From Egibacter sp. (GTDB taxonomy: Bacteria > Actinomycetota > Nitriliruptoria > Euzebyales > Egibacteraceae), in the NCBI GenBank assembly GCA_003553795.1, contig PWFH01000115.1, forward strand, positions 1-32,476: a stretch of 32,476 bases of DNA, written 5' to 3'. Positions 1 through 11,080 of the stretch are shown here, in pieces. Positions within the stretch are counted from its first letter, which is position 1; the number at the start of each line of letters is the position of its first letter. The notes beneath the pieces are model-generated. The model was given only the letters and a program-made list of their open reading frames with translations. It was not told the DNA's origin and searched no databases. Position numbers and translations under genes: made by a program.

Positions 1-1860
1 CCGCCCCTGGTGGAGGTAGATCGCACCGGGGTGCACCTGCCGGTGGGCGCGCGCCTCGTCGACGTCGAGCAGCCAGAGATCCGCGGCCCGCGGCAGGCGG
101 CCATCGGCCTCGGCGGTGGCCGCGAGGCGGAGCAGCCCGGCGCGCAGGTCGGCGAAGGCCATCATCGCCTCGCTGCGCAGCCGCTCGCGGCTGGTGATCG
201 TCGCCTGCGCCGCCCGCCAGACCGGGGTGAGCGCCCGGGCCCGCAGCGAGCGGGGCGGTGCGGGCGCCGCCGCGCGGGGCGGGGTCGCGGCCACCGCGAG
301 CAGCGCCGCGGGATCCTCGGCGAAGCGGGGGCGGGCGAGGTCGGACTCGTAGATGCCGCGGTGGCCGTGCGCGGCGAGGTAGCGCGACCACGCCGCGCGC
401 ACCTCCTGGTCGTCCGGCAGGCCCCCGCCGCGCAGCGCCTCGGCCGCGCCGGGCCGGGTCGCGACGAGCGCCCGCAGGTCGTCGAGGTCGGTGGCCATCC
501 GCGTCGCGGCGCTGCGACCCTCGCGCCCGAGCTCGGCGAGCACGCCGGCCCGGGCGAGCACCGCCACGGGCAGGCTCATCGCGTTCGCGAGCCCGAACAT
601 CTCGGTGACGAGCCCGGCGTAGCACGCCTCGGCGACGGCGACCGCCTCGCGGAAGCTCGCGGGTCGGGTCGCGGCGGCGCGCCGCAGCAGCGCCCCGGTG
701 CGCCGCGCCGAGCCGGCCACCCCGAGCTGGCGCACCCCGAGGCGCGCGAGGGCCGGCGCCTTGCGGGCCAGCCGCGCGGGGCGTGCACCGACGTCGGGCT
801 CGTCGAGGCCGGCCGCGCCGCCCATCGCGTCGGTGACGAGGCGTGTGGGCAGGCCGAGGTGGCGCAGGAGGTCGCGCAGGAGCGAGCGGTTGAGGAACGG
901 CCGCCCGGCGACGACCTCGACGAAGGGCCGCCCAGCCGGCAGGGTCGGGTCGGCGGCGCGGTAGTAGCCGAACAGCCGCGGGGAGGCGTCGGCGATGAGG
1001 CTCGTCATGAACGTCGACGGCAGGGCCGGCAGGATCTCCTTGTGGTTCGCGACGGTGAGGACCTCATCGCGCACGATCCCGCGGGTCAGCGGGCGGACCT
1101 GCACGAGCCAGCACGTGCGCCCGTCGTCGGCCCACTCGACATCCCAGTCCCCGCGCCCGAGGACGAGGCGGACCCCGCGCAGGAGCCGGGCCAGGCGGGC
1201 GGCGAACGGCGGCGCGCCCGCGGGCGCACGCGGGCGCTCGAAGGGCTCGAGACGCTCGAGGAGCGACCGTCGGCCGGTGACCCGTCCGGCGAGCAGGCGG
1301 TCGGCGAGGCCGTCGGTCCAGGCGACGACGTCGTCGAGGTGGTCGGCCTCGGTGGCCGCGACCCCGGCGTGGCGCGCCGGCACCATCGCGACGAGGAGCA
1401 CGTCGCGCCGCCGTGGCGCGCCGCCCCCACCGGAGGCTGGCCCCTGACCCCCGCCGGAGGCGCGCACCTGACCCCGACCGGAGGCGCGCACCTCCTCGAT
1501 CGCGGCGAGCAGCGCGGCGGGGTCGGCGCCGTCGACGTCGAGGAGGCTCGTGTAGCGACCGGCCTGCGCGGTGCCCTCGGCGTCCTCCCCGGCGAAGGCC
1601 GAGCGCACCGCGACGCGCGCGGGCACCTCGAGGAGACCACCTCGCCCACGGTCCCCGCTCGCGGCGAGGCCGAGGGCGGCGAGGCGCGCCCGGGGGGCCC
1701 CGGCGGCGCCGTGCCGCAGGGGCGCGAAGGCCTCGTCGGGCACGATCGCGCCGCGCGGAACCGGCAGGCCGGCGCCTGCGGCGTCGTGCAGGCGCGCGGC
1801 CTTGGGGGCGAGGGGCCCGGCGGGCGCCGCCCCGCCGAGCTCGAGGGCGCGGGCGGTCAC
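1..1860 (-). CDS. PEP-synthase / rifampin-phosphotransferase-like dikinase, partial (C-terminus outside window)
   Basis: The minus frame is open from a GTG at 1860 to the window edge (620 codons, no stop). The N-terminal ATP-grasp half resembles PPDK_N: a GLPVPRG segment near residue 31, VAVRSAFAGED at 83-93 (Arg86 in the nucleotide-binding position) and VEWADDG...LVQVRP at 241-257 (Glu242, Gln254). A helical middle region follows with NHKEILPALPS at 272-282 and HGHRGIYESDLARPRF at 498-513, a signature of PEP-synthase-like and rifampin phosphotransferase-like proteins. The phosphohistidine swivel domain should lie beyond base 1. The ATP-grasp part ends near residue 260, shorter than the roughly 310-330 I would expect, and carries a Gly/Ser-rich tandem-repeat linker at 124-147 where the YR segment normally is. 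Its GTG overlaps the hydrolase stop (GTGA). The family is clear, but the substrate (pyruvate, an antibiotic or other) cannot be told. Confidence 0.8.
   Translation of the reverse strand, partial: MTARALELGGAAPAGPLAPKAARLHDAAGAGLPVPRGAIVPDEAFAPLRHGAAGAPRARLAALGLAASGDRGRGGLLEVPARVAVRSAFAGEDAEGTAQAGRYTSLLDVDGADPAALLAAIEEVRASGRGQVRASGGGQGPASGGGGAPRRRDVLLVAMVPARHAGVAATEADHLDDVVAWTDGLADRLLAGRVTGRRSLLERLEPFERPRAPAGAPPFAARLARLLRGVRLVLGRGDWDVEWADDGRTCWLVQVRPLTRGIVRDEVLTVANHKEILPALPSTFMTSLIADASPRLFGYYRAADPTLPAGRPFVEVVAGRPFLNRSLLRDLLRHLGLPTRLVTDAMGGAAGLDEPDVGARPARLARKAPALARLGVRQLGVAGSARRTGALLRRAAATRPASFREAVAVAEACYAGLVTEMFGLANAMSLPVAVLARAGVLAELGREGRSAATRMATDLDDLRALVATRPGAAEALRGGGLPDDQEVRAAWSRYLAAHGHRGIYESDLARPRFAEDPAALLAVAATPPRAAAPAPPRSLRARALTPVWRAAQATITSRERLRSEAMMAFADLRAGLLRLAATAEADGRLPRAADLWLLDVDEARAHRQVHPGAIYLHQGR
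1420..1491 (-). repeat. Three tandem 24-bp coding repeats
   Basis: Read on the minus strand, three consecutive 24-nt units encode VRASGRGQ, VRASGGGQ and GPASGGGG (residues 124-147 of the dikinase-like protein). The first two units differ by about one base; the third is more diverged. They keep frame and insert a flexible Gly/Ser linker inside the ATP-grasp domain. The pattern suggests slippage duplication, so length may vary between strains. Confidence 0.8.
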
Positions 1861-2609
1861 GCGGCGGGCGCGGCGACGAGGCCGCGGGCGAGGTCGGCGA
1901 CGCGCCGGGCGTAGGCGCGGGGGTCGTCGAGCATCGGGAAGTGGTCCCAGCCTGGCACGCGGACGATCTCGGCCCGCGGCAGCAGGGCGCGGTAGTCCTC
2001 GACCTGCTCGACGGCGAGGAGCCGCTCGTCCTCGCCCCAGAGCAGGACCGCCGGCACGTCGACGGGGGCGAGTGAGGCGAACCACTCGGCGTCGATGAGG
2101 CGGAACATCGTCCCGAAGGCGGTGCAGCGCCCGTAGGCGGCGAGCATGCGGTCGGCGACGTCGACGGGCGTCTCGGGCGTGAGCGCGACGCGGCGCAGCA
2201 GCGGCCGCGCCGGCCGTGCGGCGATCGCCTGCTGCAGCAGGCGCGTCGCGCCGGGCAGGCGCATGAGGCGCGGCAGCGCGCGCTCGTCGAGGCGGGTGCC
2301 GACCGGCGCGTGGAGGATGACGCCGTCGACCTCCCCGACGTGGCGCTGGAGGAGGTCGAGGGCGAACGCGCCACCGATGCCGTGGCCGAGGACGACGCGC
2401 GGCCGCGGCGCGGCGAGCACGTGGCCGGCGAGGGCCTCGGCGTAGCCGGCGACGTCGGTGAGCGCCGGGTCGGCGGGCACGTCGGGGAAGCCCGGCAGGG
2501 TCGGCGCGACGAGCCGCACGCCCGCAGGGAGGTGCTCGTGGAGGAGGGCGAAGCGCAGCCCTCCCCCACCGTTGCCGTGCGCTGCGACGATCGTCACCGG
2601 AGGGCTCAT
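1857..2609 (-). CDS. Alpha/beta-hydrolase-fold protein lacking the nucleophile serine
   Basis: This 250-residue protein has the alpha/beta-hydrolase order: oxyanion segment AAHGNGGGG (residues 9-17), nucleophile elbow at 75-80, acid in LLWGEDERLL (Asp194) and the histidine in GWDHFPMLDDP (His223). The elbow reads GHGIGG where the family has GHSxGG, so residue 77 is Gly rather than Ser; the DNA clearly reads GGC. Asp and His are kept. It may have lost hydrolysis, work by another mechanism (some family members act as lyases or dioxygenases without Ser) or serve as a binding protein. The ATG at 2609 is preceded by GAGGG on the minus strand, rather close to the start. The stop overlaps the GTG of the dikinase-like gene, so the two are probably translationally coupled. 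It diverges from the SDR gene. Confidence 0.85.
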   Translation of the reverse strand: MSPPVTIVAAHGNGGGGLRFALLHEHLPAGVRLVAPTLPGFPDVPADPALTDVAGYAEALAGHVLAAPRPRVVLGHGIGGAFALDLLQRHVGEVDGVILHAPVGTRLDERALPRLMRLPGATRLLQQAIAARPARPLLRRVALTPETPVDVADRMLAAYGRCTAFGTMFRLIDAEWFASLAPVDVPAVLLWGEDERLLAVEQVEDYRALLPRAEIVRVPGWDHFPMLDDPRAYARRVADLARGLVAAPAA

Positions 2610-2773
2610 GCGCCCTCGCCTACCCGCCGGCGCGGTGGCCTATCCCCCCCTCCTCTTGCCCCCGGGGGCGGCACCGTGGCGGATGCCGGGCGTGCCACCA
2701 GGCGCAGGATGGGTATGAACGTCCGCCGGAGGGGGCAGCGAGGGCTCGGCCCTCTCGACCGAAGGGACCCGCC
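2610..2773. promoter_or_regulatory. Divergent intergenic region between the hydrolase and SDR genes
   Basis: These 164 bp must hold the start signals of two divergent units. Visible elements are a perfect palindrome GCCCCCGGGGGC at 2658-2669, a plus-strand TATGAA at 2714-2719 that could be a -10 for the SDR unit, and a minus-strand TAGGCG 7 nt before the hydrolase ATG that is only a weak -10. GAAGGGA at 2761-2767 is a good ribosome-binding site for the SDR. I cannot assign an operator. Confidence 0.4.
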
Positions 2774-3526
2774 ATGACGGAGCAAGCAGTCGCACTCGTG
2801 CTCGGGGGCGGTGGGGGCATCGGCAGCGCCCTCACCCGCCGCCTCGCCGGGTCCGGCTACCACGTCGTCGTCGCCGGACGGCGCCGCGAGCCCCTCGAGG
2901 CCGTCGCCGCCGAGGTCGGCGCGGGCGTCGAGGTGCGCCTCGCCGACGCGACCGACCCCGACGCGGTCGACGCGCTCGTCGAGGGTGTCACCGAGGCCCA
3001 CGGCCGCCTCGACGCCGCGGCGAGCGCCGTGGGCTCGCTCCTGCTCAAGCCCGCGCACCGCACGAGCGTCGAGGAGTACCGCGACGTCGTCGCCACGAAC
3101 CTCGACAGCGCGTTCTTCCTCGTGCGCGCCGCGACGAAGGCGATGCAGCGCAGCGGCGGGTCCATCGCGCTCGTCTCCTCGGTCGCCGGCCGCTTCGGCA
3201 TGAACCACCACGAGGCGATCGCCGCGGCGAAGGCCGGCGTCGAGGGCCTCGTCGTCGCCGCGGCGGCCTCCTACGCCGCGCGCGGCATCCGCGTCAACGC
3301 CGTGGCCCCCGGCCTCGTCGCCACGCCGATGACCGAGCGGCTCACGAGCAACGAGACCTCCCGCAAGGTCAGCGAGCACATGCACCCCCTCGGGCGCCTC
3401 GGCGAGCCCGACGACATCGCCTCGGCGCTCGCGTGGCTGCTCGACCCGGCGAACGGCTGGGTCACCGGCCAGGTCCTCGGCGTCGACGGCGGCATGGGCA
3501 CCGTCCAGCCGCGGCGGACCGGCTGA
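2774..3526 (+). CDS. SDR-family protein with catalytic Tyr replaced by Ile
   Basis: This 250-residue protein has the classical short-chain dehydrogenase fold. The N-terminal nucleotide loop is GGGGGIG (residues 11-17, normally TGxxxGIG). Asn109 is the structural Asn, VSSVAG holds Ser136, and the C-terminal part has RVNAVAPGLVATPM and a GQVLGVDGG ending. The active-site YxxxK reads IAAAK (Ile149, Lys153) in HHEAIAAAKAG; bases 3219-3240 show no frame problem. I recall SDR-like proteins with a similar NHEAIAAAK segment, so this may be an established atypical subgroup. Classical oxidoreductase chemistry is doubtful without the Tyr. Start: ATG at 2774 with GAAGGGA 6 nt upstream. Its stop overlaps the next ATG (TGATG). 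It heads the five-gene plus-strand unit. Confidence 0.85.
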   Translation: MTEQAVALVLGGGGGIGSALTRRLAGSGYHVVVAGRRREPLEAVAAEVGAGVEVRLADATDPDAVDALVEGVTEAHGRLDAAASAVGSLLLKPAHRTSVEEYRDVVATNLDSAFFLVRAATKAMQRSGGSIALVSSVAGRFGMNHHEAIAAAKAGVEGLVVAAAASYAARGIRVNAVAPGLVATPMTERLTSNETSRKVSEHMHPLGRLGEPDDIASALAWLLDPANGWVTGQVLGVDGGMGTVQPRRTG

Positions 3527-4911
3527 TGCCGCGCTTCACCTACGCGAGCCGGCTGCCGGTCGGCCAGGAGGAGGCCTTCGCCTGGCACGACCGCCCTGGC
3601 GCGCTCGAGCGGCTCTCCCCGCCCTTCCTTCCCGGCCGCGTCGAGCACCGCGACGGCTCCCTCGCGGAGGGCTCGCGGGTCGTCCTGCGGATGGGCCCGA
3701 CCCGCCTCGCACCGCGCTGGCACGCCCGCCACGTCACCTACGACCCGCCGCGGGAGTTCCGCGACGTCCAGGAGTCCGGCCCGTTCGCGGCCTTCGACCA
3801 CCGCCACCTCTTCGCCGCCGAGGGCGAGGAGGCCAGCGTGCTCACCGACGACGTCGTCTACCGCCTGCCCCTCGGGGCGCTCGGCGAGGCCGTCGCGGGG
3901 CCGATCGTCCGCCGCCAGCTCACGCGGATGTTCGCCTACCGCCACCGCCGCACGGTGGCCGACCTCGCCGCGCACGCCGCGGCCCGACGGAAGGGAGTGA
4001 CCCCCATGCGCATCGCCATCACCGGCTCGTCGGGCCTCATCGGCGAGGCCCTCACCGCGTTCCTCACCACCGGCGGCCACGACGTCGTGCGCCTCGTGCG
4101 GCGCGACCCCGCCGACGACGAGGCCTTCTGGGACCCCGCGAGCGGGCGCATCGACGCAGGCGCGCTGCGGGGCGTCGACGCCGTCGTCCACCTCGCCGGG
4201 GAATCGATCGCCTCCGGCCGCTGGACCGCCGAGCGCAAGCGCCGCATCCTCGAGAGCCGCACCGACAGCACCCGGCTGCTCGCCGAGACCCTCGCGTCGC
4301 TCGGCGACGAGGGGCCACGCACGCTCGTCTGCGCGTCGGGGATCAACTACTACGCCGACGGGGGCGACGAGGTCCTCACCGAGGAGAGCCCCGCCGGTGA
4401 GGACTTCCTCGCCCGGGTCTGCGTCGCCTGGGAGGCCGCCGCCGACCCCGCGCGCGAGGCGGGCGTGCGCGTCGCGCACCTGCGGACCTCCGCGGTGCTG
4501 AGCCCCGAGGGCGGCGCGCTCGGCAAGCAGCTGCCGATCTTCCGGGCCGGTCTCGGCGGGCGCTTCGGCAACGGCCGTCAGTACGACCCGTGGATCTCCC
4601 TCGACGACGTCGTGGGGCTCTACCACCATGTCCTCACGACGCCGGAGGTCGAGGGCCCGGTCAACGCCACCGCACCCAACCCGGTGACGAACGCCGAGTT
4701 CACCCGCACCCTCGCGAAGGTCCTGCGACGCCCGGCGGTCGTGCCGATCCCCAAGCTCGCTCCGCGCCTGCTGCTTGGCGAGATGGTCGACGGGCTGCTC
4801 TACCCGAGCCTGCGGGCCGTCCCGCGGGTCGCCGAGGCGACCGGCTACCGCTTCGCCCACCCCGAGCTCGAGGGCTGCCTGCGCGACGTGCTCGGCCGCC
4901 CCGCGGCGTAG
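3526..4911 (+). CDS. SRPBCC domain fused to TIGR01777-family epimerase-like SDR (YfcH/SDR39U1 type)
   Basis: This 461-residue protein has two domains. Residues 1 to about 155 form an SRPBCC/START-like ligand-binding domain (PRFTYASRLPV start, DHRHLF strand, DDVVYRLPLG ending). Residues 161-461 form an NAD(P)-binding epimerase-like domain starting MRIAITGSSGLIGE, with VVHLAGESI, CASGINYY and the C-terminal helix region typical of TIGR01777. Such fusions occur in several phyla; substrate and reaction are unknown. The ATG at 3526 overlaps the SDR stop (TGATG). Inside the gene, GGAAGGGAG at 3989-3997 lies 8 nt before an in-frame ATG at 4006, exactly at the epimerase domain start. A separate epimerase product or a relic of a two-gene ancestor is therefore possible. 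Confidence 0.85.
   Translation: MPRFTYASRLPVGQEEAFAWHDRPGALERLSPPFLPGRVEHRDGSLAEGSRVVLRMGPTRLAPRWHARHVTYDPPREFRDVQESGPFAAFDHRHLFAAEGEEASVLTDDVVYRLPLGALGEAVAGPIVRRQLTRMFAYRHRRTVADLAAHAAARRKGVTPMRIAITGSSGLIGEALTAFLTTGGHDVVRLVRRDPADDEAFWDPASGRIDAGALRGVDAVVHLAGESIASGRWTAERKRRILESRTDSTRLLAETLASLGDEGPRTLVCASGINYYADGGDEVLTEESPAGEDFLARVCVAWEAAADPAREAGVRVAHLRTSAVLSPEGGALGKQLPIFRAGLGGRFGNGRQYDPWISLDDVVGLYHHVLTTPEVEGPVNATAPNPVTNAEFTRTLAKVLRRPAVVPIPKLAPRLLLGEMVDGLLYPSLRAVPRVAEATGYRFAHPELEGCLRDVLGRPAA
3989..4008 (+). promoter_or_regulatory. Internal ribosome-binding site and in-frame ATG at the domain junction
   Basis: GGAAGGGAG at 3989-3997 is followed after 8 nt by ATG at 4006. This is in frame with the fusion protein and is the first codon of the epimerase domain (residue 161). 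Spacing and sequence are those of a good Shine-Dalgarno site. Use in vivo is inferred only. Confidence 0.5.
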
Positions 4912-4959: not shown

Positions 4960-6210
4960 ATGAGCGCCGCGGACACCGACGTCCTCATCGTCGGCGGCGG
5001 GCTTGCCGGGCTCGCCGCGGCGAGGGCACTCGAGGACGCCGACGTCGACTGGCTCCTGCTCGACGCCGCCGACGCCCCGGGCGGGCGGGTGCGCACCGAC
5101 GTCGTCGACGGCTTCGCCCTCGACCGCGGCTTCCAGGTGCTGCTCACCGCCTACCCCGAGGCGCGCGAGGCCCTCGACTACGACGCCCTCGACCTCCACG
5201 CCTTCCTGCCGGGCGCGCTCGTGCGCGTCGAGGGGTCCCTGCGGCCGGTCAGCGACCCGTTCCGACTGCCGAGCCGCGCCCTGCGCAGCGCGCGCGCGCC
5301 GATCGGCTCGCTCGCCGACAAGCTGCGCGTCGCGAGCCTGCGCCGCCGGGTGCGCGACGAGGACCCCTTCGCCGTGCCCGAGCAGACGACCCTCGAGGAC
5401 CTGCGCGCGCTCGGCTTCAGCGAGCGCATCATCGACCGCTTCTTCCGCCCGTTCCTCGGCGGCGTGCTCCTCGACCCCGAGCTCGCGACCTCCAACCGGA
5501 TGTTCCGCTTCGTCATGAAGATGTTCGCCGAGGGCGACAGCGTCCTGCCCGCCGGCGGCATCGAGGCGATCCCCACCCAGCTCGCCTCCCATCTGCCCGC
5601 CGCGCGCCTGCGCATGGGCACCGCGGTCGCCGCGTTGCACGGGCGCGAGGCCACGCTCGCCGACGGCGACGAGCTCTACGCGCGCCACGCCGTGCTCGTG
5701 GCCACCGACGGTCCGGGCGCGGCGACCCTGCTCGAGGAGGTCGACGACCCCGGCTCGCGGGCGACGACGACGCTCTACTTCGCCGCGGAGCGCCCGCCGG
5801 TGGCCGAGCCCATGCTCATCCTCGACGGCGACGACTCCGGACCGGTCAACCACCTCTGCGTGCCGAGCCAGATCGCCCCCGGCTACGCCCCCGACGGCGC
5901 CGCGCTCGTCTCGGCCTCGGTCGTCGAGGGCGGCGGCCTGCGCGCCGAGGCCCTCGCCGACGCCGTGCGCGAGCAGCTGCGCGGCTGGTTCGGTCCCGGG
6001 GTGCGCACCTGGCGGCTGCTCGGGGCCTACCACGTCGCCCACGCCCAGCCCGCCCAGGACCCCCCGGCCCTCGCCGAGCCCGTGCGCGCCCACCGCCTCG
6101 GCGCGGGCCGCTACGTCGCCGGGGACCACCGCGAGAACGCCTCGATCAACGGCGCGCTGCGCTCGGGACGCCGGGCCGCCGAGGCCGTTCTCGCCGACAT
6201 CGCGGCGTGA
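4960..6210 (+). CDS. FAD-dependent amine-oxidase-like oxidoreductase
   Basis: This 416-residue flavoprotein belongs to the amine oxidase / protoporphyrinogen oxidase / phytoene desaturase superfamily. An N-terminal dinucleotide fold has VLIVGGGLAGLAAA (residues 8-21) and the downstream GGRVRTD signature. The C-terminus has the FAD-closing motif YVAGDHRENASINGALRSG, where the family usually has an S-I-x-G-A-x-x-SG pattern. No signal peptide or membrane segment is evident. The substrate cannot be told; a steroid-, carotenoid- or lipid-like molecule would fit the family and the SRPBCC/epimerase neighbour. Start: ATG at 4960 with GAGGAGG about 7 nt upstream. A 48-bp gap separates it from the previous gene, and its stop overlaps the GTG of the following membrane gene. 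Confidence 0.82.
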   Translation: MSAADTDVLIVGGGLAGLAAARALEDADVDWLLLDAADAPGGRVRTDVVDGFALDRGFQVLLTAYPEAREALDYDALDLHAFLPGALVRVEGSLRPVSDPFRLPSRALRSARAPIGSLADKLRVASLRRRVRDEDPFAVPEQTTLEDLRALGFSERIIDRFFRPFLGGVLLDPELATSNRMFRFVMKMFAEGDSVLPAGGIEAIPTQLASHLPAARLRMGTAVAALHGREATLADGDELYARHAVLVATDGPGAATLLEEVDDPGSRATTTLYFAAERPPVAEPMLILDGDDSGPVNHLCVPSQIAPGYAPDGAALVSASVVEGGGLRAEALADAVREQLRGWFGPGVRTWRLLGAYHVAHAQPAQDPPALAEPVRAHRLGAGRYVAGDHRENASINGALRSGRRAAEAVLADIAA

Positions 6211-6644
6211 CGGCGCTGCTGCTGGCCCACGCCGCCGCGACGTGGGCGATGGTCGGGCTCATCTGGACGATCCAGGTCCTGCACTACCCGCTCTTCGCTG
6301 CCGTCGGCGACGGCGCCTTCGCCGGCTACGAGGCCGCGCACACCCGCCGGATCACCGGGCTGCTCGCCGTGCCGTGGGGCGTCGAGGCCGCGACGACCCT
6401 CGCCCTCGCCCTGCTCGCCCCGCCGGGCGCCGCCCGCGCGCTCGCCTGGGGCGGTGCGCTCCTGCTCGCCGGGATCGTCGCCTCGACGGTCGTCGCCCAG
6501 GTGCCGCTGCACCGGGCGCTGTCGGAGGGCTTCGACCCTTCGGCGCACCGCCGGCTCGTCGCGACGAACTGGCTGCGCACGCTGCTGTGGACCGCCCGTG
6601 GCGCGGTCGCCCTCGCCCTCCTCGTCATCGTGGGGCCGGCGTGA
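6207..6644 (+). CDS. Four-helix membrane protein of unknown function
   Basis: This 145-residue protein has about four hydrophobic helices: residues 2-20, roughly 50-72, 77-98 and 124-143. The first helix ends in a conserved-looking WTIQVLHYPLF segment followed by FAGYEAAHTRRITG and a VPWGVEAATT segment. This W-x-x-Q-V-x-HYPLF...H..RI pattern recurs in uncharacterised bacterial membrane proteins. Charged residues in the loops (HRALSEGFDPSAHRRLV) likely face the cytoplasm. The GTG at 6207 overlaps the flavoprotein stop (GTGA), so translation is probably coupled, and its own stop overlaps the next GTG. It may be the membrane partner of the flavoprotein, but that is inferred from position only. 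Confidence 0.7.
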   Translation: MTALLLAHAAATWAMVGLIWTIQVLHYPLFAAVGDGAFAGYEAAHTRRITGLLAVPWGVEAATTLALALLAPPGAARALAWGGALLLAGIVASTVVAQVPLHRALSEGFDPSAHRRLVATNWLRTLLWTARGAVALALLVIVGPA

Positions 6645-6818: not shown

Positions 6819-7661
6819 TCAGCCGGGGTAGCCGCGGCGGCAGCCCTCGGCGAGCTCGGCGGTGAGCTCGGCGACCGCGGACGGCCCGCCCGCCGCGATC
6901 GCCCGCACGAGGGCGGAGCCGACGATGACGCCGTCGGCGAAGCCGGCGACCTCCTCGGCCTGCGCGGCGGTCGACACGCCGATGCCGACGCAGACGGGCC
7001 GCCCGCTGAGCGCCCGCAGGCGCTCGACGAGCGGTCGTGCGCTGTCGGCGAGGGTCTCGCGGGCGCCGGTCACCCCCATCGTCGAGGTCGCGTAGACGAA
7101 CCCGGTCGAGGCCTGCGCGGCGGCGGCGAGGCGCTCCTCGGAGGAGACCGGCGCGGTGAGGAACACCGTCGCGAGGTCGTGGGCGTCGGCGACGGCGCGC
7201 CACGGTCCGCCCTCCTCACCGGGCAGGTCGGGGATGATCGCCCCGGCCAGGCCCGCCTCGGCGGCGTCGACGGCGAAGGCCTCGAGCCGCTCGGTGCCCC
7301 CGTAGTGCCACACGAGGTTGTAGTACGTCATCACGAGCGCGGGCACGTCGATCGCCGCGGTGAGCTCGGCGCACATCGCGAAGTCGTCGCGGGGCGTGAG
7401 GCCGGCCTCGAGGGCGACCTGGTTGGCGGCCTGGATCGTCGGGCCGTCCATGAGCGGGTCGGAGTAGGGGAAGCCGACCTCGAGGAGGTCCGCCCCGCCC
7501 TCCACCGCGGCCTCGAGGCAGGCCCGGGAGCCGGCGAGGTCGGGATAGCCCGCCGGCAGGTACACGACGAGGGCGGCGCGGCCCTCGTCGTTGGCGGCGC
7601 GGATCGCCGCCTCGACGCTCGCCGCGCGCGCGCCCGCCGCGGTCGGCGTGGCCGCGCTCAC
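6819..7661 (-). CDS. trpA: Tryptophan synthase alpha subunit
   Basis: TrpA cleaves indole-3-glycerol phosphate to indole and glyceraldehyde 3-phosphate and passes indole to TrpB. This 280-residue TIM-barrel protein shows the family signature [19 protein letters not shown] (59-77), with catalytic Glu61 and Asp72 in the expected places. It also has [16 protein letters not shown], the [11 protein letters not shown] loop and a [13 protein letters not shown] phosphate-binding end. Length is normal; the first 14 residues are Ala-rich and may be dispensable. The GTG at 7661 overlaps the trpB stop (GTGA), which fits 1:1 coupled synthesis of the alpha2beta2 complex. It is the last gene of the trpCBA block and converges on the small membrane gene; no clear terminator fits in the 7-bp gap. 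Confidence 0.97.
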
Positions 7662-8890
7662 GACGTCGCCTCGGCGCCGAGGGCCTCCCCGCGGACCTCG
7701 CGCAGGACCCGCTCGACCTCGTCGACGTCCTTGTCGCCGCGACCCGAGAGGTTGAGGACGACGACGCCGTCGGGCCCGAGCTCGCCGGCGAGGCGCAGCG
7801 CGGGCAGGACCGCGTGGGCGGGCTCGAGGGCCGGGATGATGCCCTCGAGCTCGGAGAGCAGCCGGAAGCCCTCGAGGGCCTCGGTGTCGCTCGCCGCGAG
7901 GTAGGTCCCGCGACCGGAGTCGGCGAGCCAGGCGTGCTCGGGGCCGACACCCGGGTAGTCGAGGCCGGCGGAGACCGAGTGGGTCGGGCGCACCTGGCCG
8001 TAGTCGTCCTGGAGGACGTAGCTGCGCGCGCCGTGGAGGATGCCCTCGGTGCCACCGGAGATCGTCGCGGCGTGGCGGGGGGTGTCGAGGCCCTCTCCGC
8101 CGGCCTCGACGCCGACGAGGCGCACCCCGGCGTCGTCGATGAAGGGGTGGAACATCCCCATGGCGTTCGAGCCACCGCCGACGCAGGCGACGACGGCGTC
8201 GGGCAGGCGGCCCTCGCGCTCGAGGATCTGGACGCGGGTCTCCTCGCCGATGACCTTGACGAACTCCCGCACGAGCATCGGGAAGGGGTGGGGGCCGACG
8301 ACCGAGCCGATGAGGTAGTGCGTCGTGGCGACGTTGGTGACCCAGTCGCGCATCGCCTCGTTGATCGCGTCCTTGAGCGTGCGCGTGCCCGAGGTCACCG
8401 GCACGACCTCAGCGCCCATGAGCTGCATCCGCACGACGTTGAGGTGCTGGCGGCGGGTGTCCTCCTCGCCCATGTAGACGATGCACTCCATGCCGAGCAG
8501 CGCGGCGATCGTCGCCGTGGCCACGCCGTGCTGGCCCGCCCCGGTCTCGGCGATGAGGCGGCGCTTGCCCATGCGCTCGGCGAGCAGCCCCTGGCCGAGG
8601 ACGTTGCAGAGCTTGTGGCTGCCGGTGTGCGCGAGGTCCTCGCGCTTGAGGTAGATCCGCGCCCCGCCCCCGTGGGCGGTGAGGCGCTCGGCGAGGTAGA
8701 GCTTCGTCGGGCGGCCGCCGTAGTCCTCGCGCAGTGCGGCCATGCGCGCGCCGAACGCGGGGTCGGCCTGGGCCTCGGCGAGGGCGGCCTCGAGCTCGCC
8801 GAGGGCCCCGATGAGCGCCTCGGGCACGAAGCGGCCGCCGAAGCGGCCGTAGTGGCTGGCGTCGGTGGCAGGAAGGTCGGTCGCGGTCAC
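7658..8890 (-). CDS. trpB: Tryptophan synthase beta subunit
   Basis: TrpB is the PLP enzyme that condenses indole with serine to give tryptophan. The 410-residue sequence has [11 protein letters not shown] near the N-terminus, the PLP-lysine segment [26 protein letters not shown], the glycine-rich phosphate cradle [10 protein letters not shown] and [16 protein letters not shown] near the C-terminal half. This matches the TrpB1 type that pairs with TrpA. The GTG at 8890 overlaps the trpC stop and its own stop overlaps the trpA GTG, so trpC-trpB-trpA are joined by two GTGA overlaps. Confidence 0.98.
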
Positions 8891-9738
8891 GGTCGCTCCA
8901 ACGTCGCTCGGCCCGGGTCGTCCCCCCGCTCGCCACGCCCGGCTGCCACCAGGCTACGCACCTCGGCGGCGGGATCCACCGCCGTGACGACGTGGGTGCC
9001 GACGAGCACGGCGTCGGCGCCGGCGGCGGCGACCCGGGCGACGTCGGCGGGCGCGGCCACGCCCGACTCGGCGACGGCGAGCGCGCCGTCCGGCAGCGCC
9101 GCGACGCAGGCGGCGAAGCGCGCCGGGTCGACCTCGAGGGTGGCGAGGTCGCGGGCGTTGACGCCGACGACGGGGCGCGTCGTCGGGGCGGCCGCCGCCA
9201 GCGCCGTCCGGGCGCGCTCGGCCTCGGCGACGTCGTGCACCTCGACGAGGGCCTCGAGGCCGGCCTGCCCGGCCTCGGCGAGCAGGCCGGCGAGCGTGGC
9301 GTCGTCGAGCGCGGCGACGATGAGCAGGACCGCCGCCGCCCCGGCCGCGCGCGCCTCCCACACCTGGTAGGCGTCGACGAGGAAGTCCTTGCGGATCGTC
9401 GGCGCGTCGGTGCCGGCGGCGACGACGGCGAGGTCGGCGAGCGTGCCGCGGAAGTGCGCCGGCTCGGTGAGCACGCTCACCGCCGCCGCGCCGCCGTCGA
9501 CGTAGGCCCGCGCCCGGGCGAGGGGGTCGGGCAGCCAGGCGAGGTGGCCCGCCGAGGGGCTCGCCCGCTTGAGCTCGGCGATGACCGCGGTGCCCGGCCC
9601 GCCGAGTGCTGCGGCGAGCGACGGCGGGGTGGGGGTGGCCAGCCCCTGCTCGCGCAGCGCGGCGTCACCGACGAGGCGACGCGCCTCGGCGACGCGCTCG
9701 CGGGCCTGCGCGCAGGCGAGGTCGAGGAAGCTCTCCAC
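8887..9738 (-). CDS. trpC: Indole-3-glycerol phosphate synthase
   Basis: This enzyme closes the indole ring from CdRP in tryptophan synthesis. The 283-residue barrel shows [13 protein letters not shown] (residues 52-64, catalytic Lys57), [22 protein letters not shown] with the second catalytic Lys, LVEVHDV with the catalytic Glu, [13 protein letters not shown] and [12 protein letters not shown] chose the GTG at 9738 because it begins the family's usual N-terminus ([10 protein letters not shown]) and has CGGAG about 8 nt upstream; the frame stays open further upstream but is not protein-like. No trpF or trpD lies next to it. It leads the trpCBA block and diverges from the MFS gene across 85 bp, so it needs its own promoter there. 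Confidence 0.96.
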
Positions 9739-9823
9739 GGGCGGGCTCCGATCGGTCGACGCGGGGCGGATGCGTGCCGCGGCGCGGGGCGTGACGCACC
9801 GACGGCAGGGTAGCGTCCGCGTG
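9739..9823. promoter_or_regulatory. Divergent promoter region trpC / MFS gene
   Basis: These 85 bp separate trpC (minus) from the exporter gene (plus). On the plus strand TAGCGT (9811-9816) fits a TANNNT -10 and ends 7 nt before the ATG at 9824, predicting a leaderless mRNA. On the minus strand TACCCT (9812-9807) shares bases with it and could serve trpC, giving a leader of about 60 nt. No Trp-codon leader peptide or attenuator is visible. No convincing -35 is seen for either. Confidence 0.4.
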
Positions 9824-11080
9824 ATGGCCGACTCCCCCGCGCCCGACGCCGCGACGCCGCGCCCGGTGCGCGCCCTGCTCACCGACCCGACGTTCGGGCC
9901 GTGGTTCCTCGGCAACCTCGCCTCGAACAGCGGCAACTGGCTCTACAACGTCACCGCGGCGGTCGTCGTCTTCAACCTCACCGGCTCGGCCCTGCTCGTC
10001 GGGCTCGTGAGCGTCGCGCAGTTCGCCTCCCTCGCGGTGCTCTCCCCCTGGGCGGGCGCGCTCGCCGACCGCCTCGACCGGCGGCTGCTCCTGCTCGCGA
10101 GCCAGTCGGTCGCCGCGGCGAGCGCGACGGCGATCGCCGTCGCCGTCGTCGTGCTCGGCGTCGACGGGCTGCCCGGCGCGTGGCCGGTCATCGCCGCGAG
10201 CGGGGGCATCGGCGTCGGCGTCGCCTTCGCCGGCCCCGCGCTCAACGCCCTCGTGCCCGCGCTCGTGCCCGACGCCGACCTCGAGGACGCTGTCGCGCTG
10301 ACCTCGCTGACCTTCAACATCGGCCGCGCGCTCGGCCCCGCGGTCGGCGGGGTGCTCCTCGCCACCGTCGGCGCCGAGGTCGCCTTCGTCGCCAACGCCG
10401 TGAGCTTCCTCGCCCTCATCGGCGCGCTCGCGGTCATCCGTCCGCGGGAGGTCGACCGCAGCGGCAGCGGGGACCGCTCGGTGCGGGCGGGACTCGCCTA
10501 CGTCCGCGCCGACGGGGTCCTCGTCCTGCTCCTCGTCGGCGTCGGCGCGGTCGGCTTCGCCACCGATCCCATCAACACCCTCGCGCCGCCGCTCGCCGCC
10601 GCGCTCGGCGGCGGTGACGGGCTCGTGGCCTTCCTCGTCAGCGCCTTCGGCCTCGGCGCCGCGGCGGTCGCGCTGCTCGCCGGGCGGGCCCAGCGCCGCG
10701 CCGGCCTCGCCACCGTCGCGACGGGGGGCAGCCTCCTGCTCGCCTGCGGGCTCGCCCTCGCCGCGCTCGCGCCGGTCGCCGCGCTCGCGCTCGTCGGCTT
10801 CGCGGCGATGGGCGCGGGCTTCCTCCTCGCCCTCACGAGCCTCACCGCCCTGCTCCAGCGCCGGGTGCGCGAGGACGTGCGGGGGCGGGTCATGGCCCTG
10901 TGGACCGTCGCCTTCCTCGGCACACGCCCGCTCGCCGCCCTCGTCGACGGCGCCGCGGCCGACGCCTTCGGGGTGCGCCCCGCCTTCGGGATCGCCATCG
11001 CCGTCGCCCTGCTCGGTGCGGCGGTCGGCCGGGCGCTCCAGGGCCGCATGGGGGCACCCGCGCCGGCGCCACGGGTCTGA
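9824..11080 (+). CDS. MFS transporter, EntS-like exporter family
   Basis: This 418-residue polytopic membrane protein has about 12 hydrophobic helices. It opens with a TDPTFGPWFLGNLASNSGNW segment, then GALADRLDRRLLLLASQ, the loop between helices 2 and 3 that marks MFS proteins (G-x-x-x-D-R-x-x-R-R). LTFNIGRALGPAVGG and RVREDVRGRVMALW in the second half are typical of the MFS_3/EntS-like group, which includes siderophore and drug exporters. The substrate cannot be told. I chose ATG 9824 because the MFS N-terminus begins there and a -10 hexamer lies 7 nt upstream; GTG 9821 is an alternative adding one residue. The fructoside operon has its own promoter after a 144-bp gap, so a role in sugar use is uncertain. 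Confidence 0.85.
   Translation: MADSPAPDAATPRPVRALLTDPTFGPWFLGNLASNSGNWLYNVTAAVVVFNLTGSALLVGLVSVAQFASLAVLSPWAGALADRLDRRLLLLASQSVAAASATAIAVAVVVLGVDGLPGAWPVIAASGGIGVGVAFAGPALNALVPALVPDADLEDAVALTSLTFNIGRALGPAVGGVLLATVGAEVAFVANAVSFLALIGALAVIRPREVDRSGSGDRSVRAGLAYVRADGVLVLLLVGVGAVGFATDPINTLAPPLAAALGGGDGLVAFLVSAFGLGAAAVALLAGRAQRRAGLATVATGGSLLLACGLALAALAPVAALALVGFAAMGAGFLLALTSLTALLQRRVREDVRGRVMALWTVAFLGTRPLAALVDGAAADAFGVRPAFGIAIAVALLGAAVGRALQGRMGAPAPAPRV

Follow-up and report, generated by a model that had tools for sequence, protein, structure and literature searches.

A family of α/β-hydrolase-fold proteins with Gly at the nucleophile elbow is linked to a rifampin-phosphotransferase-like dikinase in six phyla

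We analyzed a 32,476-nucleotide stretch of DNA from Egibacter sp. (GenBank assembly GCA_003553795.1, contig PWFH01000115.1; hereafter the window), whose minus strand encodes an α/β-hydrolase-fold protein with Gly77 in the position of the catalytic nucleophile. This protein belongs to a family in which the nucleophile is absent, an acid-His dyad is conserved, and the gene adjoins, fuses with and is inherited together with that of a rifampin-phosphotransferase-like dikinase whose own motifs are intact. The pattern suggests that the two proteins take part in one reaction, and speaks less for a gene that is broken. The initial annotation had noted the missing Ser and, across a divergent promoter region, a short-chain dehydrogenase/reductase (SDR) that lacks its textbook Tyr. 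Its observation on the hydrolase is real and stronger than was stated; the explanation moves from a local SDR oddity to a conserved module of hydrolase and dikinase.

Results

Structure of the hydrolase and its active-site residues

Translation of the minus strand of 1857–2609 yields one open reading frame of 250 amino acids, from ATG to stop, that contains VVLGHGIGGAFAL and places Gly at position 77, in agreement with the GHGIGG elbow reported initially. The fold, also claimed to be intact, proved so: the protein matches the Pfam family Abhydrolase_6 with 75.2 bits (cut-off 26.3), and the AlphaFold2 model has a predicted local distance difference test score (pLDDT) of 94.7 and a predicted template modelling score (pTM) of 0.92. 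The 50 entries among the matches listed align with the model with Z-scores of 22.6–24.6 over 234–244 residues. Comparisons of the model by Foldseek and VIA-align return generic hydrolases, which do not discriminate function and do not exclude families missing from these results.

The protein carries no Ser, Asp or Cys nucleophile at its elbow and retains the acid and the His of the triad, which leaves a dyad-only pattern. His223 had been assigned correctly as the catalytic His. The acid had been placed at Asp194, a position that holds mostly basic residues in the family (R16, K6, E5, D4, H3 and N1 as the six commonest letters over 36 rows), whereas column 195 is acidic in every row (D20, E16). 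Glu195 fits the role of the catalytic acid, because column 195 always holds Asp or Glu while column 194 holds mostly Arg or Lys. The HGNGG loop that follows the first strand of the model would, by analogy, form the oxyanion-hole region.

Gly at the elbow is a family trait

A search of 101 genomes, the window's own included, returned nine further members at 49–89% identity, followed by a gap to 28–38%; the nearest relative (89%) is in a Nitriliruptorales record, from a genome of the same genus as the window. Scanning a genome collection gave 36 loci, 33 of which form, together with the window and two others, the 36-row alignment (A2) used for the positional counts. Three fragments were omitted from it: L065, which shows GHGIGG, and L073 and L075, which lack the elbow. 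Eight further members come from one class of Acidobacteriota (9 of 118 genomes, the query genome among the nine). The resulting 44 members, 43 of them distinct (the L112 protein is identical to that of L054), are found in Actinomycetota, Acidobacteriota, Melainabacteria, Nitrospinota, Chloroflexota and Bacteroidota.

Gly occupies position 77 in all 44 members (36 by alignment, eight from the Acidobacteriota class); the elbow Gly is thus conserved among homologues, and no member carries Ser. Ser-bearing homologues with the window's gene order were sought and none was found: the three other loci with the divergent order, L040, L057 and L064, carry Gly. The elbows of 29 other α/β-hydrolases, by comparison, hold Ser in 23, Asp in five and Gly in one; in this background set some proteins are split into two alignment pieces, and 13 rows without the elbow are uncounted. 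When 16 other hydrolases are added to a tree of the family, all 44 members fall on one side of a branch supported at 100/99. A family profile scores them at 303–349 bits versus less than 100 bits for the next-best proteins, and no close relative bearing Ser was found among these; L082 and L091–L099 carry Ser but score below 100 bits. The elbow Gly is not a local accident and lies beyond chance or sequencing error.

The family is patchy in its distribution. Among 296 genomes of the phylum at least 6 have a member, counting the window's own (one more match, L082, proved to be a Ser hydrolase); in three other groups the family occurs in at least 1 of 150, at least 1 of 194 and 1 of 77 genomes, always the query genome. 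Counts from the sets of 296, 118, 150 and 194 genomes are lower bounds, since at most 9, 23, 18 and 14 first-look candidates, respectively, were scored per genome. L118, excluded from the 150-genome count, is a non-member with a Gly elbow from another clade (G847, from the class of an Anaerolineae genome; contig C12, 15705–16442); its elbow reads GHGVGG and it groups with a Ser hydrolase (98/92), so that it apparently represents an independent loss of the nucleophile. In a record titled Thalassobius (Pseudomonadota), L067, both hydrolase and dikinase group with Bacteroidota, and the contig is probably mis-binned.

Eighteen positions are invariant over the 36 rows and six phyla, among them His11, Gly12, Asn13, Gly14, Gly15, Gly77, Gly79, His100, Arg110, Phe165, Trp176, Trp221, Pro225 and Met226. 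The His at position 100 is absent from the background hydrolase rows listed. The cap is basic, with Arg110 in 36/36 rows, Arg or Lys at 114 in 34/36 and at 140 in 36/36, and Arg135 in 31/36; such a cap would suit an anionic substrate.

The hydrolase gene is linked and fused to a dikinase gene

The informative neighbor of the hydrolase gene is not the SDR but the rifampin-phosphotransferase-like gene downstream of it, on which the initial annotation is silent. In the window, the start of this partner gene at 1860 overlaps the hydrolase stop codon (1857–1859) by 4 bases, and the gene runs off the contig; elsewhere in this genome, a fragment that carries the swivel motif GGDLSHGS is found at one edge of contig C141. 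Of the 44 hydrolase loci, 39 have a partner next to the hydrolase and on its strand, with spacings of −41 to +16 bases in 13 loci and −4 in five (longest-frame starts). Three of the five exceptions, L040, L047 and L055, end 78, 72 and 319 bp from a contig end. The other two have room: L039 extends 2,667 bp downstream and L117 1,492 bp without a partner, and a wider stretch of the latter (L121) has none either. The genomes of L040 and L041 carry partner pieces on other contigs.

Hydrolase and partner form one open frame in L042, L044 and L049, and in L045 as far as the contig end, always with the hydrolase N-terminal to the dikinase. Because L049 stands apart from L042, L044 and L045 in the tree, the fusion arose at least twice or was lost. 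The two halves also share their inheritance. For the 28 loci in common, hydrolase and partner trees, built by a quick method and with the window's partner partial, share 14 of 25 splits, compared with a mean of 0.21 and a maximum of 2 in 500 label shuffles; no conflict has support of at least 95 on both sides.

Searches from the partner side, in which 5–7 first-look candidates per genome were scored and which therefore give lower bounds, found the query genome and three remote homologues (26–27% identity) among 149 genomes around Phaeodactylibacter, and two close partners among 198 genomes around that of L042. All three close partners adjoin or fuse with a Gly-elbow hydrolase. The three remote homologues have no family hydrolase within the 7–12 kb stretches fetched. 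These three, L107 (2015–4303), L108 (1–1983) and L109 (6921–8918), lack equivalents of Arg74, Glu211 and His693 (described below) and are candidate pseudo-dikinases.

The partner has the domains and residues of small-molecule dikinases

Complete partner copies that were scanned contain PPDK_N and a C-terminal PEP-utilizers domain. Lys25 (28/28), Arg74 (29/29), Glu211 (28/28), Gln223 (28/29), Arg225 (28/29) and His693 (29/29) are conserved (L050 numbering; the counts omit the window's partner and L107–L109). We take the first five to have the ATP-grasp roles of their counterparts in PPDK and phosphoenolpyruvate synthase. Both the swivel His and the ATP-grasp residues of a small-molecule dikinase are present. 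The role of the swivel-domain His is described in passages of PMC12167813, according to which small phenols are phosphorylated in this fold through a pyrophosphorylated His.

The nearest solved relatives by sequence are 5hv2, 5fbs and 5hv1, which the sequence table calls phosphoenolpyruvate synthase and the entry titles rifampin phosphotransferase. Foldseek ranks 1–6 for a model of a fused protein are all rifampin phosphotransferase; residues 250–937 align with this enzyme with a Z-score of 25.5 over 567 residues and a root-mean-square deviation of 14.8 Å, large presumably because the positions of the domains differ. The Foldseek template modelling scores by query length are low, at 0.25–0.36, and the deviations 14–21 Å, so that for the fused model we claim domain make-up alone: ATP-grasp, middle and swivel domains as in rifampin phosphotransferase. 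In this the partner resembles the dikinases rifampin phosphotransferase, HpeHI, CreHI and PpsAB, all with a swivel His (29/29 in the partner), and differs from them in lying beside or being fused to a Gly hydrolase in 39/44 loci.

The partner falls outside the curated rifampin phosphotransferase family: scores against the NCBIfam model RIF_Ptrans_rph are 78.0 and 72.9 bits, below its cut-off of 999. The L036 partner also gives weak matches, mostly in its C-terminal part, to the prodigiosin and undecylprodigiosin ligases PigC and RedH (92.2 and 76.5 bits, far below the cut-offs of 1300 and 1350). These names suggest that related proteins include ligases, and the partner may be either a kinase or a ligase.

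In L032, L033, L036 and L037, from genomes of family f4, the pair is divergent to a presumably thiolase-like gene; a gene that we take to encode a MeaB/ArgK-like GTPase adjoins in L032, L033 and L037.

His223 is lost only where no partner is found

All 39 members with an adjacent partner have His223, which is replaced by Arg in L010/L039 and by Gln in L117. The two loci with room but no partner, L117 and L039, thus both lack it (39/39 vs 0/2; Fisher p 0.0012, a test that rests on two cases and is uncorrected for relatedness). The genome of L117 (G690) holds only a remote dikinase-like protein of 35% identity or less, and that of L010 (G012) a C-terminal dikinase match of 39% or less. Since G012 is 84% complete, its missing partner may reflect the assembly. 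In our reading, the dyad comes under weaker selection after the dikinase has been lost. This would favor a dyad that is catalytic in a reaction of both proteins; a ligand site that serves them together would fit the loss of His223 too.

Discussion

Comparison with hydrolase-fold proteins that lack a nucleophile

NDRG proteins lack the catalytic Ser, and Pfam holds an Ndr model; the Ndr family is not among the four Pfam families matched at E 0.01 by the 250-residue protein. The NDRG proteins, which are animal proteins, share the hydrolase fold according to an abstract. CGI-58/ABHD5 is likewise an animal protein with a hydrolase fold and no catalytic Ser, as passages of PMC11878206 relate; these also record hydrolase-fold lyases with an Asp/Glu-His dyad and no Ser. 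In tomato methylketone synthase 1 (ShMKS1), Ala stands at the elbow, the His is kept and 3-keto acids are decarboxylated (passages of PMC11644291). ShMKS1 resembles our protein in its fold, its missing elbow Ser and its retained His; it differs in belonging to a plant methylesterase lineage and in having Ala-His-Asn rather than Gly-His-Asp/Glu. In cofactor-free dioxygenases of the HOD type, a His-Asp dyad deprotonates the substrate and Ser101 is described as tuning oxygen versus water; in a simulation, changing this Ser to Ala lengthens the residence of oxygen at the reaction site (passages of PMC10548524). Fold and dyad are again alike, but HOD keeps Ser101 at the elbow, where Gly77 stands here. 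The passages of PMC11644291 and PMC10548524 on these two enzymes mention no dikinase. Because hydrolase-fold precedents work without a nucleophile, a dyad-driven lyase, decarboxylase or oxygenase step would by analogy be the most likely chemistry.

A possible joint reaction

We tentatively favor a model in which the Glu/Asp-His dyad carries out, without a nucleophile, proton-transfer chemistry coupled to the ATP-dependent phosphorylation of a small molecule. Hydrolase and dikinase would be two halves of one metabolic enzyme. The hydrolase half would have given up acyl-enzyme catalysis for good; the Glu195-His223 dyad, the HGNGG loop, His100 and Arg110 would instead transfer protons on a small molecule that is anionic or enolizable, in the manner of a lyase, a decarboxylase or a cofactor-free oxygenase. 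The dikinase half, working with ATP through a phosphohistidine that swivels, would transfer phosphate to this molecule or activate it in some other way, whether ahead of the proton transfer or following it. Catalysis by the hydrolase half, the type of reaction, the order of steps and the class of substrate are points that we infer. It is tempting to speculate further that the pair is a bifunctional catalyst of a new type: the nucleophile-free domain would decarboxylate, oxygenate or cleave its substrate (the last by a retro-aldol reaction), and the reactive enol or enolate so formed would pass directly to the phosphohistidine of the dikinase, to be trapped as a phosphoester. A redox protein of the SelL type would take part in this pathway in many lineages. 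We regard this more detailed scheme as unlikely.

Several observations weigh against the joint proton-transfer model. Position 76, the His of the elbow, is Thr in L005, L055 and L117. L117 and L010/L039 stay open genes without His223, and the tie between His223 and the partner rests on two cases, one of them in the genome that is 84% complete. Hydrolase and partner are probably unlinked in L055, because 319 bp of contig remain beyond the hydrolase while the full partner in this Anaerolineae genome begins ~2.6 kb inside another contig. Neighboring genes vary between lineages and name no pathway. Finally, conservation of the dyad can also serve the binding of a ligand.

The last point leads to the main rival, which is only a little less likely: the hydrolase-fold protein may be a non-catalytic subunit that binds or presents the substrate or regulates the dikinase, with the dyad kept as a ligand site. 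This would agree with the permanent loss of the nucleophile and with the N-terminal fusion to the dikinase. There are parallels in passages of PMC11878206, where CGI-58 is also a lipase cofactor and the DUF687 and DUF3530 hydrolase folds, which lack catalytic residues, are called probably non-enzymatic; the example of HpeHI shows that a dikinase with this fold may also function when its parts are separate subunits (passages of PMC12167813). On the other hand, Asp or Glu at 195 in 36/36 rows, His223 in every member beside a partner, and invariant His11, Asn13, His100 and Arg110 are more polar conservation than docking would need, and the dikinase brings its own middle domain, which can be aligned with the substrate-binding middle domain of rifampin phosphotransferase. 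A cofactor-free lyase- or oxygenase-like activity and a non-catalytic role, both guessed at in the initial annotation, stay as the two leading explanations, and that interpretation is supported in part.

It is quite improbable that the protein has remained a hydrolase by means of another nucleophile or, as would also be possible, of water activated by the His-acid dyad. The dyad and the HGNGG loop are intact and His100 is invariant, but Ser, Thr, Cys and Asp are all missing from the invariant columns, and the columns that might supply a substitute vary (Asp, Glu, Asn, Gln, Lys or His at 108; Cys, Ala or Ser at 162; His or Thr at 76). Decay of an ordinary esterase into a pseudogene-like paralogue, to which L010/L039 and L117 with neither His223 nor an adjacent partner might point, is hardly credible: 18 invariant positions over 36 members of six phyla, open frames and coupled partner genes all point to long selection, and His223 is lost only where no partner was found; the acidic column 195, the support for the clade and the adjacency of the partner already speak against it family-wide.

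Searches of open-access text, some of them aimed at the pair or its partner, yielded no description of the hydrolase-dikinase pair, although one may exist. Families of the hydrolase fold that lack catalytic residues, such as DUF687 and DUF3530, are already on record (passages of PMC11878206). Such families mostly offer no handle on what they do; a Gly clade over six phyla with an intact-looking dikinase provides one. If the hydrolase half is catalytic, it would add to the examples in which this fold has abandoned catalysis by a nucleophile, and the natural fusion would tell which reaction is coupled to it; if it is not, the family would represent a hydrolase-fold subunit of a dikinase, of which the open-access text likewise yielded no description.

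Genes around the pair

The features of the window are collected in Table 1.

Table 1 Features of the hydrolase-dikinase region of the window
Feature	Coordinates	Strand	Basis or remark
α/β-hydrolase-fold protein, 250 aa, Gly77 at nucleophile elbow	1857..2609	minus	translation, Pfam, alignment, AlphaFold2 model
GHGIGG elbow, codons 75–80	2370..2387	minus	translation
Gly77 codon	2379–2381	minus	Gly in 36/36 alignment rows
HGNGG loop, codons 11–15, after first strand of model (residues 5–11)	2565..2579	minus	invariant 36/36
His100 codon	2310..2312	minus	invariant 36/36
Arg110 codon, at cap start	2280..2282	minus	invariant 36/36
Glu195 codon, catalytic-acid column	2025..2027	minus	Asp/Glu in 36/36
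His223 codon, catalytic-His column	1941..1943	minus	35/36 alignment rows; 42/44 loci
Partner gene, first 620 aa: rifampin-phosphotransferase-like, PPDK_N ATP-grasp then middle domain	1..1860	minus	runs off contig
Divergent intergenic region, 164 bp	2610..2773	none	between hydrolase and SDR
SDR, Ile in expected Tyr position	2774..3526	plus	NHHEAIAAAK, Lys kept
SRPBCC-like part (Polyketide_cyc2, below cut-off) + TIGR01777 oxidoreductase	3433..4911	plus	longest open reading frame
FAD-dependent amine-oxidase-like protein	4960..6210	plus	Amino_oxidase 144.5 bits; HpnE below cut-off
145-aa protein, hydrophobic by eye	6207..6644	plus	no Pfam or NCBIfam match

The divergent SDR described in the initial annotation is real and lies 164 bp away, but the pairing is local: an SDR homologue stands beside the hydrolase in 4/44 loci, the window included (for eight loci the flank covered was just 1.5 kb), and the linkage is confined to close relatives. 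Among the loci searched, the window shares the divergent SDR block only with L040, L057 and L064. We therefore rejected the pairing as the key to the hydrolase. We judged the Tyr position of the SDR by eye against what we take to be the YxxxK motif of these enzymes. The SDR family occurs in 28/81 genomes, the window's own included, at 51% identity or more; a pattern search finds NHEAIAAAK or NHHEAIAAAK in 11/15 SDR loci and leaves the other four unmatched, and the SDR is probably a conserved subfamily of its own. A consensus scan of 2500–2900 revealed no sigma-70-like promoter.

The SRPBCC-TIGR01777 protein probably starts near 3523, and a homologue of it lies upstream of the pair in L052 (Nitrospinaceae). 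As neighbors of the hydrolase, the TIGR01777 and SRPBCC parts might suggest a light-response or photolyase-linked cluster; we dropped this idea, as a search of papers showed no connection between them. In L074 and L116, homologues of the 145-residue protein precede the module on its upstream side. The SDR block is followed at 6819–9936 by genes that are presumably trpA-, trpB- and trpC-like; relatives of the first two lie near L040 and L057, and a trpB-like relative also near L064.

Anti-phage defense was dropped as a reading, since PADLOC at E 0.01 gave no match for any of five proteins scanned: the hydrolase, the L036 partner, the L054 SelL-like protein, the SDR and the 145-residue protein. 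A redox protein related to SelL (136.8 bits with NF040769, whose cut-off is 120; PF13911) lies within 66 bp upstream of the hydrolase in 15 distinct loci from Actinomycetota and Acidobacteriota relatives and also beside the fragment L065; the window and the other loci have none at that place. Proteins resembling GMC oxidoreductases stand upstream in L061 and, in the form of a piece, in L060; weak matches hint at another in L058.

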